Source of the DNA: Myxococcota bacterium
GTDB taxonomy: Bacteria; Myxococcota_A; Polyangia; Polyangiales; Polyangiaceae
DNA length: 42,777 bases
Direction: 5' to 3'
NCBI GenBank assembly: GCA_963169165.1
Contig: CAUJFL010000287.1
Location: forward strand, 1-42,777
Part shown: piece after piece, positions 29,533 to 38,840 of the stretch
How the letters are laid out: each line of letters starts with the position of its first letter
Position numbering within the stretch: position 1 is the stretch's first letter
Program-made: the position numbers and the translations under genes
Notes under the pieces: model-generated
What the model was told of the DNA's origin: nothing
Database searches by the model: none
Seen by the model: the letters and a program-made list of their open reading frames with translations, nothing else

Positions 29533-31107
29533 ATGAGCCGTTCGAGCCTTCGCGTCGCCGTGTCTTCCCTGTCCCTCGTGTGGGCGTTCGTCGCTTGCGG
29601 CGGCCGCAGCGACGTCCCCGGCTCGGGGTACGACGAGCCCAACCCGCTGCTCGCCGGCGCCGCCGGCAGCACCCCGGGCAAGGCCGGCAGCTCGGCGACG
29701 GCGGGGACGGGCGGGGGTTCGGCGGGCGTCGGCGCGGCGGGGGCGGGCGGCGTCGGCGCGAGCGGCGGCGTCGGCCCGGGCGGCGCGGGCGGGTTCGGCG
29801 CGGGCGGCGGCGGTCCTGGCGGGGCGCCGGGCTCGTGCAGCTCGTGCTTCTCGACGACGGGCGCCGCGCAGTGTCCGTCCACCGTCCAGGCTTGCAAGTC
29901 GAGCACGACCTGCGCTCAGTTCGACGCCTGCGTGAAGCAGAAGGGTTGCCTCGAGCTCGGGTTCGGCGGCTTCACCAAGTGCATCGCCCAGTGCGGCCCC
30001 ACCTCCTCCCAGAAGCTTTGGCTCAACTTCGCGTCTTGCCAGCTGTGCGACAGCTCGTGCGCCTTCGGAGCGTGCCCGGGCGCGTCGGGCGAGGTGTGCG
30101 GGAGCGGCGGCGCGGGCGGCGGCCCGCAAGGCTGCGTAGAGGGCGCCAAATGCAACGGGAACGACAGCTGCGGCTCCATCGACCCCAGCAATCCCAATTG
30201 CACGACCAGCTGCACCTGCTTCAACGGGACGTACCAGTGTTCGACCTCGTGCGGCCCTGACGACTGCAACAGCTGCGTCGCGTCGTCCGCCAAGGCCGTG
30301 TGTCCCAAGGAGGCGCAGCAGTGCGCGCAGTTCCCAGGGTGCATGGGCCTGTTCGAGTGCATGACCAAGGCGGGCTGCCACGCCTCGCCGAACCCCATCG
30401 CCTGCGCGTCGCAGAGCGGTTGCACCCTGCCCGCTGGCCCCGCGACCAAGGTCGCCGCCGACCTCGGCGAGTGCAGCAAGTGCAACGGCTGCGGTCAGTG
30501 CCCCATCAACCCCGGCGAGTGCGGCAGCGGCGGCGGCGGCTCCGGCGGCTTCGGCGGCAACCCCGGCAAGACCTGCGGAGACTGCTCGCTCGGCGCCATC
30601 CAGACCGGCAAGTGTCCCAAGGAGGTCTCCCTGTGCGAGAAGACGCCGGGGTGCCTCTCGGTCGCGCAGTGCGCGAAGACCAGCGGTTGCATGGAGACCG
30701 CCAATCCTGTCACGTGCGCCCAGCAGTCCTGCAAGGGGAGCGCCGAGGCGTTCGAGCTCTTCGGCCAGCTCTTCCAGTGCGTCGGCTGCGGCGCCTGCCA
30801 GCCCCAGTGCCTCGCGTGCGGCGGCGGGGGGGGCGGCGGCACCGGCGGGGGCCCGCAGCAGTCGTGTGACGAGTGCGTCGAGGAGAACCAGTTCAAGTGT
30901 CAGGCCGACATCAACGCCTGCTTCGCGGACCCCGAGTGCAGCAAATTCCTCGATTGCATGCAGAACGAGGACCCTGACAAGTGCCAGCAGAAGTTCCCCG
31001 GCGGCGTCCCCGGCTACATGAAGATCATCGACTGCCTCGTCTGCACCGCCTGCGGAGACGCGTGCTCGAACGAGGTCCCGCCCGACTTCTGCGCGTCGGA
31101 TTTGTGA
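29533..31107 (+). CDS. Lipoprotein with four cysteine-rich modules and Gly-rich linkers
   Basis: The protein has 524 residues. The signal ends FVAC (Cys22), followed by a long Gly/Ala/Ser linker (about 41-98). Four related modules of about 75-85 residues follow. They share CxxC, a CP(K/S)xxxxC-like segment, short Cys-to-Cys spacings of 4-6, and a late CxxC-xx-C cluster (for example CGDCSLGAIQTGKCPKEVSL). They start near residues 98, 238, 348 and 450 and are joined by Gly-rich stretches. Between modules one and two is a separate cysteine knot-like insert (CTTSCTCFNGTYQCSTSC). The even, regular cysteine pattern implies many disulfides formed outside the cytoplasm. No named domain was recognised. 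Its stop faces, 25 bases away, the end of an operon encoding disulfide enzymes. Confidence 0.85.
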   Translation: MSRSSLRVAVSSLSLVWAFVACGGRSDVPGSGYDEPNPLLAGAAGSTPGKAGSSATAGTGGGSAGVGAAGAGGVGASGGVGPGGAGGFGAGGGGPGGAPGSCSSCFSTTGAAQCPSTVQACKSSTTCAQFDACVKQKGCLELGFGGFTKCIAQCGPTSSQKLWLNFASCQLCDSSCAFGACPGASGEVCGSGGAGGGPQGCVEGAKCNGNDSCGSIDPSNPNCTTSCTCFNGTYQCSTSCGPDDCNSCVASSAKAVCPKEAQQCAQFPGCMGLFECMTKAGCHASPNPIACASQSGCTLPAGPATKVAADLGECSKCNGCGQCPINPGECGSGGGGSGGFGGNPGKTCGDCSLGAIQTGKCPKEVSLCEKTPGCLSVAQCAKTSGCMETANPVTCAQQSCKGSAEAFELFGQLFQCVGCGACQPQCLACGGGGGGGTGGGPQQSCDECVEENQFKCQADINACFADPECSKFLDCMQNEDPDKCQQKFPGGVPGYMKIIDCLVCTACGDACSNEVPPDFCASDL

Positions 31108-31132: not shown

Positions 31133-31807
31133 CTACCTGCGCGAGAACACCGCGCGCAGCTGCTCGTAGTCGCCCGCGTCGACGGCGCCGTCGATCACGC
31201 AGCGCAGGGCGCCCGACGGATCGAAGAGGAGCTGCTGCGGCAGCTGCATGTCTGTCTTCAGCCTGAGCTCGGCGAGCCACCCCTCGCGCATCTTGCCGTC
31301 CTTCAGCCAGAAGCTGGCGCGGAGGCCGCCCGGGGGTTGGGAGTCGAGCAGCTTGATGGCCTGCCGCTCGTCGTCGTCGAGGCTGACGAACGCGAGGTGA
31401 ACCGGCGCGCCGGCCGCGGCGAGGCGCTGCTCGAAGCTGCGCAAGAGAGGGAGCTCTTCCTTGCAGGGGCCGCACCACGCCGCCCAGAGGTTCACCCACG
31501 TCCAGCGCCCACCGGTCGGGATGCGATCCCCGACGCTCGCGCCGCCGGTCGCCTCGAGGTGGTCGACCTTCATCCTCGGGAGCTGGACGCCGGCCGCCGC
31601 GGGCGCCGTCGCGCAGAGGCGCTTCGGGGCCTTGGGCGCCACCGGGTGCGCGGTCGCGGGCGGCTGCGCGGTCGTCCTCGCGCCGGTCGCGACGACCGCC
31701 TCGCTGCGGGAGGTAGGGGTCGGCGCCGCGCCGCGCTCGGATGATTTGTCACAGCCCACGGCCCCGACCGCGAGCGCGAGCAGCCCCGACGCGAGCCGCG
31801 CCCTCAC
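31133..31807 (-). CDS. TlpA-type thioredoxin-like lipoprotein
   Basis: The protein has 224 residues from a GTG that overlaps the upstream stop (GTGA). The signal ends GAVGC (Cys19). A Thr/Pro/Ala linker is followed by a thioredoxin fold with the active site WCGPC at Cys112 and Cys115 in VNLWAAWCGPCKEELPLL, then VHLAFVSLDDDE and the cis-Pro region LPQQLLFDPSG. TlpA/ResA proteins act as disulfide reductants, for cytochrome c maturation or for repair of wrong disulfides, and so would oppose the oxidase encoded first in the operon. It has about 80 residues of linker before the fold, longer than usual for the family. Confidence 0.92.
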   Translation of the reverse strand: MRARLASGLLALAVGAVGCDKSSERGAAPTPTSRSEAVVATGARTTAQPPATAHPVAPKAPKRLCATAPAAAGVQLPRMKVDHLEATGGASVGDRIPTGGRWTWVNLWAAWCGPCKEELPLLRSFEQRLAAAGAPVHLAFVSLDDDERQAIKLLDSQPPGGLRASFWLKDGKMREGWLAELRLKTDMQLPQQLLFDPSGALRCVIDGAVDAGDYEQLRAVFSRR

Positions 31808-32502
31808 AGGCGACAGTCGACCCACGAGATGAACGCGCTGCGGTTGATGGCGTCGGCGTTGCAGGGCTTGCCGGGGCGTGAGTTGGTCCATTTGTCGCAG
31901 TAATCCTTGGGGAGCTGGGCGAACTCTTCTCCGAGCCAGAGCATCCCGACCTTCTTGTCGAGATCGGGATCCTTCGACTGGTCGGCGAGCCAGAAATTCA
32001 CCGAGTTGGCGCGCTTGTGGGAGAGCGCCTTGTTCATCCCCGCGGCGCCGCTCTTCGACGCTCGGGAGACGATGAAGAAGTAGCGGGCGAGGCGGCGGTC
32101 CTCCCACTTTTCCATGATCAGCTTCTTGGCGCCGTCGTCGAGCTTGTCGCCGGCGTCGTCGAACAGGATGATCGCGCCGCGCTGCTCGAGCGGGGCGAAG
32201 AGCGCGTTGAAGTCCTCGTCGGAGATGGTGGCGAACTGCTTCACGTCGACCGGCTGGCAGCCGCGGCGCGACTCCTCGCCGACGAGGCCGCAGGCGTTGA
32301 CCACGCGCTGCAGGACGCTCTTGAACTGCGGCGTGCAGTAGGGAGCCTCGGTGTGGTCGGCCGTCGCCGCGACCGGCGCGTCTGCCTTCTTGGGGGCGGT
32401 CAGGCGCTTCTCGGCGGCCTTGACCTCGACGCTGACGAAGCTGACGACGCCGACCAGGAGGCCGACGCCGGCGAGGAGACTGAGGACGTGGGCGAGCTTC
32501 AT
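31804..32502 (-). CDS. Membrane-anchored OmpA-like domain protein
   Basis: The protein has 232 residues. An N-terminal hydrophobic segment (about 5-24) with no clear cleavage site probably anchors it in the inner membrane. Residues about 100-190 look like an OmpA-type peptidoglycan-binding fold: AIILFDDAGDKLDDGAKKLI, a RYFFIVSRASKSG strand and LSHKRANSVNFWL, which corresponds to the 'RA..V..yL' helix. Six or so cysteines (in YCTPQF, NACGLVG, RRGCQP, YCDKW, KPCNA and WVDCRL) are spaced so that disulfides are likely. It is the middle gene of the redox operon, 12 bases after the VKOR-DsbA gene. Confidence 0.78.
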   Translation of the reverse strand: MKLAHVLSLLAGVGLLVGVVSFVSVEVKAAEKRLTAPKKADAPVAATADHTEAPYCTPQFKSVLQRVVNACGLVGEESRRGCQPVDVKQFATISDEDFNALFAPLEQRGAIILFDDAGDKLDDGAKKLIMEKWEDRRLARYFFIVSRASKSGAAGMNKALSHKRANSVNFWLADQSKDPDLDKKVGMLWLGEEFAQLPKDYCDKWTNSRPGKPCNADAINRSAFISWVDCRL

Positions 32503-32514
32503 CGTGTCGACTCC

Positions 32515-33849
32515 TTACGGCTGGAACACCTGCGGCGCGAGCTGCCCCATCACGTAGCGCAGGCCGAGATCGGTGTCCTCCTCGCAGAGGCGCGTCTCGC
32601 CGAGGAACATCTGCGGCGTCGAGATGGGGATCTTGTTGGTGACGGCGAACTGCAGCACCCGGTCGAGGCGCTTCTTCGTCTCCTTGTCGTCGATGCAGGC
32701 GTCGACGTCGGGGAATTTCTCGCGGATCTTGGCGCGAATGATCTCCTTGCCCGCCTTGCCCGCGTCGCGCAGCTCGTCCTGGTTGTCGTAGGACCAGTCG
32801 AGGATCTCGCGCGCCTTGCCGATTTTGTCACCACACAAAAACGCCTTGGCGAGCTGGCACGAGCCGGGGTGGAACGGCCGGTCGAGCATGGGGTTGCACT
32901 CGCTGTCGAGCGGGAAGATCGCCACGGTCAGGTCCAGTCGGTCGAAGATCTCCTCGGTCTGCAGGCGCTTGTGGAACGCCTTGCACGTCGGGCACAGCGG
33001 GTCCTCGAACGTGAGCGCGGGCTGCACGGGCCTCAGCGTCTTCAGCTTGACGAGCGCGCCCGTCTTCTCGTTCAGGTCGACGATCTTGCCGCACGACAGC
33101 AGCATCGGCCGGTAGTCGGGCAGCGACGACGTGTAGACGAGGGCGGGCGCCACCGCGAACACGCCGAGCATGGGGAACAGCGACAGCGGCGCGAGCCAGC
33201 TGCCTGTCGGCACGAGCGACGACGGGCCGAGCGGCGAGCGGGCGGGCTCGGGCATCGCGTAGGCGTGCAGCGGGTAGCCCGCGGGCACCGGCGGCCCCGC
33301 GTCGGGGATCGTGTCGGTCGCCGAGCCTCCGACCGCGCCGGCGCCCCGCTTGCCGCCCGCCGCGACGAGCGCCCAGACGCCCGACGCCGCGAGGATGCCC
33401 GACGCGACGTAGAGCCCGACGCACAGCTTGCAGAACTGCCCGAGCTTGGTCACCGAGATCGTGAACATCACCGCCGACGCGATGATCGGCGTGAGCGAGG
33501 CCAGGCCATACGCCTGCCAGCTCCGCTTCGACGCCGAGTTGCCGGCCGTCAGCAGGTAGACCGCCAGGGCGAGGAAGAACGCGTACGCGCCCATCGCGAA
33601 CAGGCTGATCGGCACGCCACCCCAGTATTTGTCGCGGAAGATCGCCGAGTACGAGCTGTACATCGCGGCCTTGCACGCGTTGTCGCCGCTCTCGGGGCCG
33701 GTGAGCCCGGGCACGAACGAGCAGTTGGTCGCGTGCAGCTGGCGATCGAGGTGCAGCGCGTAGTCGTGGGTCGAGAAGGCCGAGAAAAATAGCCCCATCG
33801 TGGCCGCGATCACGCCCAGGACCCCAGGCAACCGGGAGCGGGACGACAT
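32515..33849 (-). CDS. VKOR-DsbA fusion: disulfide-forming membrane enzyme
   Basis: The protein has 444 residues. The N-terminal half is a VKOR-type quinone-coupled disulfide carrier with four or five helices: loop cysteines Cys43 and Cys59 (in NCSFVPG and NACKAAMYSSYS), the WGGVPISLFAMGAYAFF region and the active-site pair Cys140-Lys-Leu-Cys143 in FCKLC. After another helix near 240-255 comes a DsbA/DsbG-like thioredoxin fold with Cys286-Pro-Thr-Cys289 in FEDPLCPTCKAFHKRL and a late cis-Pro region (ISTPQMFLGE). The fold has a helical insert with further cysteines. Such fusions pass electrons from folding proteins through the thioredoxin domain to the VKOR part and then to quinone, replacing DsbB plus DsbA. 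It starts a three-gene operon. Confidence 0.93.
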   Translation of the reverse strand: MSSRSRLPGVLGVIAATMGLFFSAFSTHDYALHLDRQLHATNCSFVPGLTGPESGDNACKAAMYSSYSAIFRDKYWGGVPISLFAMGAYAFFLALAVYLLTAGNSASKRSWQAYGLASLTPIIASAVMFTISVTKLGQFCKLCVGLYVASGILAASGVWALVAAGGKRGAGAVGGSATDTIPDAGPPVPAGYPLHAYAMPEPARSPLGPSSLVPTGSWLAPLSLFPMLGVFAVAPALVYTSSLPDYRPMLLSCGKIVDLNEKTGALVKLKTLRPVQPALTFEDPLCPTCKAFHKRLQTEEIFDRLDLTVAIFPLDSECNPMLDRPFHPGSCQLAKAFLCGDKIGKAREILDWSYDNQDELRDAGKAGKEIIRAKIREKFPDVDACIDDKETKKRLDRVLQFAVTNKIPISTPQMFLGETRLCEEDTDLGLRYVMGQLAPQVFQP

Positions 33850-36359: not shown

Positions 36360-38840
36360 ATGCGCCACATCCGACTGACCGCCGCCCTGGTTCTGCCGCT
36401 CACCCTCTCTGCCTTCGCCGCGTGTGGAGGGTCCGAGGACGCGGACGTCGCGCCTGGAGCGCCCGCGGGCGGCGCCGCCGGCGCCGGCGGCGCGAAGGGA
36501 GGCGCCAGCGGGCAGTCGGCGGGCTCCGCGGGCAAGCCTGTCGGCGGCGCCTCCGGCGCGGCGGGCGCGGGCGGCGCCGGCAAGGGCACCTGCGGCAACG
36601 CCAAGGTCGAGAAGGAGAACAACGAGGACTGCGACGACGGCAACAAGACCCCCGGCGACGGGTGCGAGTCCGACTGCACCTACACCTGCAACCCCGAGAC
36701 GACCGGCGACGCCAAGTGCGACGACAAGAACCCCTGCAACGGCGCCGAGAAGTGTACGGGGGTGAAGGGCTCCGCGGTGTGCAAGCCCGGAGCGCCGCTC
36801 GCCGAGGGCTCGACCTGCGCCACCGGCAAGGTGTGCCTGGCCGGCGCCTGCACGTCCCCGTCGTGCGGCGACGGCAAGGCGCAGCCCGGCGAGGAGTGCG
36901 ACGACGGCAACGCCAAGGCGGGCGACGGCTGCGAGGGGAGCTGTCAGTTCACTTGCAAGACCGGCGATCCCAAGCGCGGCTGCGCGTCGACCAACCCGTG
37001 CGTCGCCGACGGCCAGTGCGACGACGCCGCCACGCACACCTGCAAGGCGGGCGCCCCGAAGCCCGACGGCACCGCGTGTGGCGCGGGTCAGCTCTGCGCC
37101 GGCGGCGCCTGCAAAGCGGCGGCGTGCGGAGACGGCGTCTTGAACGCCGCGGCCTCGGAGGTCTGCGACGACGGCAACGGCACCGCCGGAGACGGCTGCG
37201 AGGCTGACTGCAAGTTCACTTGCAACGATCCCGCGGCCGACTGCCCTGCCCCGCCCGCGTGCCAGGTGGCGGTCTGCGCCGACGTGATGGCGGCCGGCGT
37301 GAAGGTCGGTCAGAAGTGTGGGACCCAGCCCGACGCGGCGGCCGAAGGACTGAGCCCCCCAGGCTGCGACGCCCCCAGCACTTGCGCCGCTGGCGCGTGC
37401 AACGCCCCCGGCGCGAGCTGCGGCAACGGCGTCGTCGAGAGCGGCGAGGCGTGCGATTTTGGCGCGCAGAACGGCCCTGGCGTCGGCTGCGAGACCAGCT
37501 GCACGCCGTCCTGCGCGACCGCGCCGGACTCGTGCCCCGATCAGAACCCGTGCAACGGCGTCGAGGTCTGCGGTGACGTCACCGTGGGCCCGAGCACAGG
37601 CCAGGCGTGCGGCGCGGGGACACAGGCGCCAGACGGCACCTCGTGCGGGGGCTCGAACATCTGCCTCGCCGGACAGTGTACGCTGTCGACCTGCGGAGAC
37701 GGCTACGTCGACCCAGCGGCGAACGAGCAGTGTGAACCGCCGGGCACCGGCGCGTGCGACGCCGGCTGCAAGACCGTGCAAGCGGCGATCTGCGGCGACG
37801 ACAAGGTCGATCCCGGCGAAGAGTGTGACGACGGCAACGTCGCGAACCTCGACGGCTGTGACTCGTCGTGCAGGTACGAGATGGCCGTCCGCCTGACCTC
37901 TGCGGTCGTCAGCAACGCGATGGCGCCGAGCGGCTGCTCTCCGACGACCAACGCCTTCGGTCGCAACGTGCTCGCTGGCGCTGGCCGGAGCACCGTGAAC
38001 GACTCCCTGAAGGCCGCGATCGACGACGGCAGCACCAACGTCGTCGTCCCCTTGCTCGGCCTCGACGATCTGACGGGCGTCGCCGACGCGGACCTGAAGC
38101 TGGGCCTCATCGCGGCGTCGCCCGATCCGGCCAAGGGCGCGTGGCCCGGCGCCGCCCCCCTCGACTGGTGGTTCCTCGCGTCCTCCTCGAACGTGGACGC
38201 GAGCGGCCTGCCGACGTCGTTCGTGCAGCCCGCGTCCGTGTCGGCGCGCAACCTGCGCGCGGGGCCGTCCGACACGACGATCACGCTGCTCATCGCGGGG
38301 ACGCCCGCGCCCCTCGCGATGCGCGACGCGAACATCTTCGCGCGGCTCGACGGCACGCCCGCCCCCAGCAAGCCCGGCGCGCCTCCGACCAACCTGGCGG
38401 CGGGGCTCGTGACGTTCCAGACGGTGACGGCCGACGCCAGCGGCACGCAGGGCCTGTGCGGCAACATCACGGTCGAGTCGCTGGCGCAGATCCCGATCCC
38501 CGAGGCGCTCACGACCGGCACCACCGCCTGCAACTCCGGCTGCAGCGGGAGCAACGCCTACAGTTACTGCGGCAAGGGCATGCCTGTCAGCGCGACGTGC
38601 AACTCGCTGCTCGACGCGGTGGTCGGCGGCTGCAAGGCCACGTTCCTGTGCGTCGGCGCCATCAACGCGAGCCAGCCCGACGTGGCCGGCGCCGGGTTCG
38701 CGGGCACGCTCACGGTGGTCAGCGGGGGCGCGGGCCAGCCCAAGAAGGTGCCCGAGGCGCAGTGGTCGGGCAACACGCGCGCGTACTCGTCCTACATCGC
38801 CTTCAAGGCGAACCGAACACACCTGACTGGCAAGAACTGA
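36360..38840 (+). CDS. Large lipoprotein with DUF4215-type cysteine-rich repeats
   Basis: The protein has 826 residues. The signal ends FAAC (Cys22), followed by a Gly/Ala linker (about 28-77). Residues 77-505 hold six modules of the myxobacterial cysteine-rich repeat, of the form CGxGxxxxGEECDDGNxxxGDGC; the core is canonical CDDGN in four (first, second, third and sixth) and altered in the fourth (CDFGA) and fifth (CEPPG). Between them are CNG/CTG-type segments with more cysteines. The C-terminal 320 residues are beta-rich with no cysteines until a cluster near 700-770 (CGNITVES, CNSGCSGSNAYSYCGKG) and end in a strand-rich region. Such proteins are probably surface-exposed and held rigid by disulfides and possibly metal ions; no function is established. 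It converges on an ACAD gene 26 bases on. Confidence 0.88.
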   Translation: MRHIRLTAALVLPLTLSAFAACGGSEDADVAPGAPAGGAAGAGGAKGGASGQSAGSAGKPVGGASGAAGAGGAGKGTCGNAKVEKENNEDCDDGNKTPGDGCESDCTYTCNPETTGDAKCDDKNPCNGAEKCTGVKGSAVCKPGAPLAEGSTCATGKVCLAGACTSPSCGDGKAQPGEECDDGNAKAGDGCEGSCQFTCKTGDPKRGCASTNPCVADGQCDDAATHTCKAGAPKPDGTACGAGQLCAGGACKAAACGDGVLNAAASEVCDDGNGTAGDGCEADCKFTCNDPAADCPAPPACQVAVCADVMAAGVKVGQKCGTQPDAAAEGLSPPGCDAPSTCAAGACNAPGASCGNGVVESGEACDFGAQNGPGVGCETSCTPSCATAPDSCPDQNPCNGVEVCGDVTVGPSTGQACGAGTQAPDGTSCGGSNICLAGQCTLSTCGDGYVDPAANEQCEPPGTGACDAGCKTVQAAICGDDKVDPGEECDDGNVANLDGCDSSCRYEMAVRLTSAVVSNAMAPSGCSPTTNAFGRNVLAGAGRSTVNDSLKAAIDDGSTNVVVPLLGLDDLTGVADADLKLGLIAASPDPAKGAWPGAAPLDWWFLASSSNVDASGLPTSFVQPASVSARNLRAGPSDTTITLLIAGTPAPLAMRDANIFARLDGTPAPSKPGAPPTNLAAGLVTFQTVTADASGTQGLCGNITVESLAQIPIPEALTTGTTACNSGCSGSNAYSYCGKGMPVSATCNSLLDAVVGGCKATFLCVGAINASQPDVAGAGFAGTLTVVSGGAGQPKKVPEAQWSGNTRAYSSYIAFKANRTHLTGKN

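Follow-up and report, generated by a model that had tools for sequence, protein, structure and literature searches.

A cysteine-bearing protein of the OmpA fold, encoded together with two disulfide enzymes in a Myxococcota bacterium of the family Polyangiaceae (order Polyangiales), points to a dedicated, undescribed envelope redox system. Its gene lies on a contig of 42,777 nucleotides (CAUJFL010000287.1, hereafter the window) from a draft genome (GCA_963169165.1; 5.8 Mb, 479 contigs), where genes for a VKOR-DsbA fusion, the OmpA-like protein and a TlpA-like protein run head to tail on the reverse strand from 33849 to 31133 (Table 1). An initial annotation of the sequence had proposed an envelope redox operon of three genes at this place, and the three genes are present as described: the trio spans the interval exactly, and its order is kept in relatives. 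A 12-bp gap separates the VKOR-DsbA and OmpA-like genes and a 4-bp overlap joins the OmpA-like and TlpA-like genes, spacing that is consistent with a single transcript. No leader RNA structure was found 5′ of the VKOR gene (z-score -0.17), a promoter scan returned no promoter-like sites, and a terminator scan returned two terminator-like sites, where 1.2 would be expected; both lie on the forward strand.

Results

Linkage of the three genes in relatives had been fixed beforehand as the observation on which the operon should be judged, and the genes proved to be linked. Profiles of the VKOR-DsbA, OmpA-like and TlpA proteins were first run on a set made up of the window and 40 other loci (39 distinct loci in all, after removal of L081 and L084, which duplicate the contigs of L049 and L052) and then on 20 more, in genomes that were hand-picked from the match lists for spread rather than chosen at random. 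At 59 of 59 distinct loci across the phylum, the gene immediately upstream of the OmpA-like one, in the same orientation, encodes VKOR-DsbA, and TlpA lies downstream of the OmpA-like gene at 56 of these 59, with L114 reaching a contig end. At L113, the VKOR frame is split in two.

Among 377 genomes of the phylum, 87 carry both the OmpA-like protein (E ≤ 1e-50) and VKOR-DsbA (E ≤ 1e-40), none carries the OmpA-like protein only, and two carry VKOR-DsbA only, both at contig ends. These cut-offs exclude 30 genomes with weaker OmpA-like matches (117 minus 87) — which include ordinary OmpA domains, a second family described below and a 33-residue contig-end fragment in genome G086 — and 37 genomes with weaker VKOR-DsbA matches (126 minus 89). 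A match to the OmpA-like protein at E ≤ 0.001 is present in 90 of the 183 genomes of the order; for the VKOR counts given below, the trio genomes of the order are those in which this match reaches E ≤ 1e-20 (89 of 183), and G086 is counted as non-trio. Other than its three genes, the trio has no conserved neighbours beyond near relatives, the protein-kinase matches around it being promiscuous. The VKOR-DsbA/OmpA/TlpA unit is fixed in many myxobacteria-like bacteria, and both Sorangium cellulosum So ce26 (L042) and So0157-2 (L040) carry it.

Conservation was measured on 37 of the 39 distinct loci, leaving out L035, where VKOR is cut by the contig end, and L041, which has no TlpA; the set includes close relatives, with four Sorangium loci as well as the window and L033. 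The OmpA-fold protein is the best conserved of the three, with a mean pairwise identity of 0.52 compared with 0.43 in VKOR-DsbA and 0.35 in TlpA; the distance matrices of the three genes are concordant (Mantel r 0.84-0.91, versus at most 0.24 in 999 permutations). In a tree built from the OmpA-like and VKOR-DsbA sequences, L037 (f5 genome; f numbers denote families) is nested in the f1 clade with support 1.0, L102 (f1 genome) groups with f4, f7 and f12 (support 0.999), and L103 (f5 genome) groups with f15 and f22 (support 0.985); single-gene trees give the same placement for L037 and L102, and partly for L103. These placements suggest transfer as a unit at the three loci, the alternative being wrong binning of the draft genomes.

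The OmpA-like member, which the initial annotation had singled out as the novel part of the operon, has kept that standing; it is cysteine-bearing, carries an Asp-to-Ser replacement and is fixed in the trio. The window protein scores 14.2 bits against PF00691, under the gathering cut-off of 27.2, and reaches no NCBIfam model at its cut-off, the family being poorly covered by models; all 25 of 25 aligned relatives match PF00691 at E ≤ 1, with a best E of 4.1e-7. Its predicted model (mean predicted local distance difference test score, pLDDT, 77.7) matches the C-terminal domain of OmpA (3td5) with Z 10.9 and a root-mean-square deviation (rmsd) of 3.2 over 114 aligned residues, and the N-terminal helix is signal-anchor-like. 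Six cysteines are invariant at 37 of 37 aligned loci.

The peptidoglycan-binding pocket of this protein is altered at a single, well-defined position. In Acinetobacter baumannii OmpA, the excerpted text of PMC5974059 gives Asp271 and Arg286 as the pair that binds diaminopimelate (DAP). Ser149 of the trio protein aligns with this DAP-binding Asp (as the equivalent of D271, and opposite the Asp of 4b5c and 7bba) and is Ser at 37 of 37 loci, while Arg164, the equivalent of R286 located 15 residues past Ser149, is kept at all 37. As a control from the same genome, the DAP-binding Asp is kept in 14 of 14 ordinary OmpA domains, nine of them scored by pattern match and five by eye. Replacement of the Asp by an invariant Ser breaks the DAP-binding residue pair, which argues that the pocket most likely takes a ligand other than DAP, or else that its binding to the wall is redox-controlled. 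With the peptidoglycan-binding domains of the OmpA C-terminal/Pal/YfiB/PorE group, the trio protein shares the fold and two binding-loop residues, Asn and Arg; it differs from them in the invariant Ser for the DAP-binding Asp, in its six cysteines and in a helical, cysteine-bearing N-terminal extension. A precedent for an OmpA-fold protein in periplasmic signalling is the YfiB-YfiR system of Pseudomonas, in which the partner has a disulfide; its likeness to the trio was compared at the OmpA fold, through structure matches, and the partner gene differs.

The fusion enzyme upstream is recognised through its VKOR domain, which matches PF07884 at E 7.9e-16 (58.9 bits, cut-off 27.5; 22 of 22 relatives match). 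Its DsbA part gives weak Pfam scores (E 0.17-0.2, with the Trx match under cut-off), and no NCBIfam model reaches its cut-off on the window protein, again in a family that models cover poorly. In the predicted structure (mean pLDDT 86.5), the C-terminal domain matches DsbA-type structures with Z up to 16.7 (1z6m, rmsd 2.9, 164 aligned residues) and the VKOR domain matches the VKOR-like 6wvb (Z 13.2, rmsd 3.0, 151 aligned residues). C43, C59, C140 and C143, which we take to be the four VKOR cysteines, are kept at 37 of 37 aligned loci, and C286 and C289 of the CPTC motif in the DsbA domain (residues 286-289) are invariant in the same set. Bacterial VKORs with a C-terminal Trx or DsbA domain — Synechococcus VKOR (4nv2) and the proteobacterial and spirochete fusions covered in the excerpted text of PMC4555120 — are alike in the VKOR core with four cysteines, in an extra helix ahead of the redox domain and in a C-terminal DsbA-fold domain with CPxC. 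Unlike them, the trio enzyme has six additional invariant cysteines in its DsbA domain and always stands in an operon with an OmpA-fold gene.

At least two VKOR genes are present in 71 of 89 trio genomes of the order, compared with 7 of 94 non-trio genomes, so that a separate VKOR is available in most trio genomes for general disulfide formation. The window's genome encodes a second VKOR-DsbA elsewhere (L101:5712-6791, forward strand, contig C171), with CPFC and no OmpA-like partner nearby; at 359 aa it is shorter and more ordinary than the trio fusion, and it probably serves this genome as its ordinary disulfide enzyme. As controls, 20 further VKOR-DsbA loci were hand-picked from the weaker VKOR-DsbA matches, and one of them (L178) has an Arg-x-Ser OmpA-like neighbour.

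The third protein matches Thioredoxin_8 (30.0 bits, cut-off 27), and its W111, C112, P114 and C115 are invariant at 37 of 37 loci. Its score against the NCBIfam TlpA equivalog is 41.3 bits, short of the cut-off of 230, and we therefore call it TlpA-like and not rhizobial TlpA. It shares the WCxPC motif and an apparent membrane anchor (lipobox or N-terminal helix) with the TlpA/ResA/CcmG thiol-disulfide proteins, and differs from these in its operon partner and in two extra cysteines, C65 at 32 and C203 at 37 of 37 loci. DsbD/CcdA (PF02683), considered as the electron supply of TlpA, occurs in 178 of 183 genomes of the order; being near-universal it is uninformative, and it was dropped as a discriminator. 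One TlpA gene near the trio type (L166:6276-6911, forward strand, genome G273; E 6e-41) has no VKOR partner, and an OmpA-like partner was looked for in G273 and none was found.

Bradyrhizobium TlpA acts in the assembly of CuA, and ScsC is a copper-tolerance protein. The former is among the nearest solved relatives of the TlpA-like protein (1jfu, matched by the family profile at E 3.2e-16; also 4txo) and the latter is one of the top structural matches to the DsbA domain (Z about 15), likenesses that would suit a pair of enzymes serving a metal or heme centre, with the OmpA-fold protein holding or sensing the metal. Such structural matches are common to ordinary DsbA proteins, however, and with no cofactor-assembly or oxidase gene conserved beside the trio, we consider a role in cofactor assembly highly improbable.

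Weak matches to the OmpA-like profile revealed another, distant family of OmpA-fold lipoproteins (with 'GRAS' for 'GHTD'), present in 16 of 292 genomes of the phylum (L150-L165; first seen in L129-L134). This GRAS family has C56, C71, C82, C230, the Arg-x-Ser motif, Asn157 and Arg164 in common with the trio protein. A TlpA-like gene follows directly at 15 of the 16 loci, and the sixteenth ends about 100 bp past the GRAS gene, which makes 15 of 15 testable loci; because the four genomes tested have only 6 to 18 TlpA-profile matches each, this adjacency is not attributable to chance. Because the OmpA-TlpA pair is kept here without VKOR, the closest partner of the OmpA-fold protein may well be TlpA. 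Divergent same-strand sets of VKOR-DsbA, OmpA-like and TlpA genes were also found, at L128:4538-8560 (reverse strand), L167:4583-9348 (forward strand) and L178:6888-10366 (forward strand). Their OmpA-like proteins are richer in cysteine and keep an Arg-Ala-Ser motif, those of L128 and L167 have an additional cysteine-rich N-terminal segment, and the TlpA domain of L167 lies 2.2 kb further on, within a longer open frame.

The same pairing at 15 of 15 testable loci is what a scaffold would produce, and this is a serious rival: the OmpA-fold protein would anchor TlpA, and VKOR-DsbA with it, at an envelope site, and the clients would be other exported proteins. A binding hub would also be expected to be the most conserved member, as the OmpA-fold protein is, but a plain wall anchor is unlikely with the wall-binding Asp lost at 37 of 37 loci, and a scaffold leaves the invariance of the protein's own cysteines unexplained. 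On this evidence we regard a scaffold as possible but rather doubtful.

The initial annotation had also read the trio as a maturation unit for disulfide-rich surface proteins, with two cysteine-rich lipoproteins flanking the operon. Both lipoprotein genes exist, but they are on the opposite strand, and the second is about 2.5 kb away with other genes in between. Their proximity to the trio does not extend to relatives: homologues of either gene occur only at the same-genus L033 among 39 loci searched (a set that includes L101, which is not a trio locus), and with linkage limited to L033 we rejected them as members of the unit. TIGR02232, the myxobacterial cysteine-rich repeat, is present in 79 of the 87 genomes that have the trio and in 238 of the 290 that do not; median repeats per genome among the matches listed (up to about 19 per genome) are 11 and 6, respectively (Mann-Whitney p = 0.20), and 29 of the 87 trio genomes have two repeats or fewer. 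The gene arrangement in the window and in L033 would be expected of a unit that matures cysteine-rich surface lipoproteins in general, but the unlinked flanking genes elsewhere and the unclear difference in repeat abundance leave such a unit unsupported; we hold it to be improbable, and a dedicated role of the trio fits better. The 524-aa flanking lipoprotein, for which no match was found in Pfam or NCBIfam, is 12% cysteine and apparently consists of about four diverged repeats with CxxC stretches.

Table 1. Coordinates of the trio and of the flanking lipoprotein genes in the window.
Feature	Position	Strand	Details
VKOR-DsbA fusion	32515..33849	-	444 aa; 12 cysteines, invariant in 37/37 aligned loci
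VKOR domain of VKOR-DsbA	33388-33813	-	
DsbA-fold domain of VKOR-DsbA	about 32530-33099	-	CPTC at 32983-32994
OmpA-fold protein	31804..32502	-	232 aa; invariant C56, C71, C82, C202, C214, C230
Arg147-x-Ser149 ... Asn157 ... Arg164 stretch of OmpA-fold protein	32011..32064	-	defined by alignment and invariance
TlpA-like thiol-disulfide protein	31133..31807	-	224 aa; GTG start; lipobox AVGC19; WCGPC, CxxC at 31463-31474
Cysteine-rich lipoprotein, flanking, outside the module	29533..31107	+	63 Cys in 524 aa; convergent with the trio
Cysteine-rich lipoprotein with TIGR02232 repeats, flanking, outside the module	36360..38840	+	65 Cys in 826 aa; about 2.5 kb upstream of the trio

Discussion

The disulfide-bearing OmpA-fold protein is best read as a partner or client of TlpA and a second VKOR-DsbA, and we lean, with modest confidence, towards a dedicated envelope redox module in which the OmpA-fold protein is oxidised by VKOR-DsbA, has its disulfides handled by TlpA and forms the working end. 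With a direction of electron flow, a substrate and a membrane anchoring that we infer, VKOR-DsbA would be an inner-membrane, quinone-linked oxidase that uses its own DsbA domain to install disulfides in the membrane-anchored OmpA-fold protein. The TlpA-like protein, itself predicted to be membrane-anchored, would act on these disulfides as the thiol-disulfide partner, reducing, proofreading or switching them, and the downstream role of effector would fall to the OmpA-fold protein. Several observations weigh against this module as drawn. The OmpA-fold protein is the best conserved of the three, which is hard to explain for a mere passive client; L041 and L107 carry the other two genes without TlpA; and no VKOR was found near the GRAS family in the short loci as fetched, so that the oxidase is not obligatory.

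The component families are known, but their combination in a fixed unit appears to be new, as does the OmpA subfamily; the literature searches that we made found no paper describing the trio, and the claim is limited to those searches. More speculatively, the OmpA-fold proteins could constitute a class of their own among envelope sensors or effectors, new to science, in which an Arg-x-Ser pocket with a cysteine core would bind a non-DAP ligand, would be disulfide-switched by a dedicated TlpA, usually together with VKOR-DsbA, and would be transferred as a complete unit; we put this forward tentatively, as the less likely outcome.

Known bacterial disulfide systems consist of an oxidase and general clients. 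If the dedicated module is real, the phylum-wide coupling of a single OmpA-fold protein with one VKOR-DsbA and one TlpA would amount to a client-dedicated redox system and offer an assayable target, and its presence in named Sorangium cellulosum strains makes it testable there. For the OmpA superfamily more broadly, a subfamily in which the residue that predicts peptidoglycan binding is replaced implies that its members may be misannotated as plain wall anchors.

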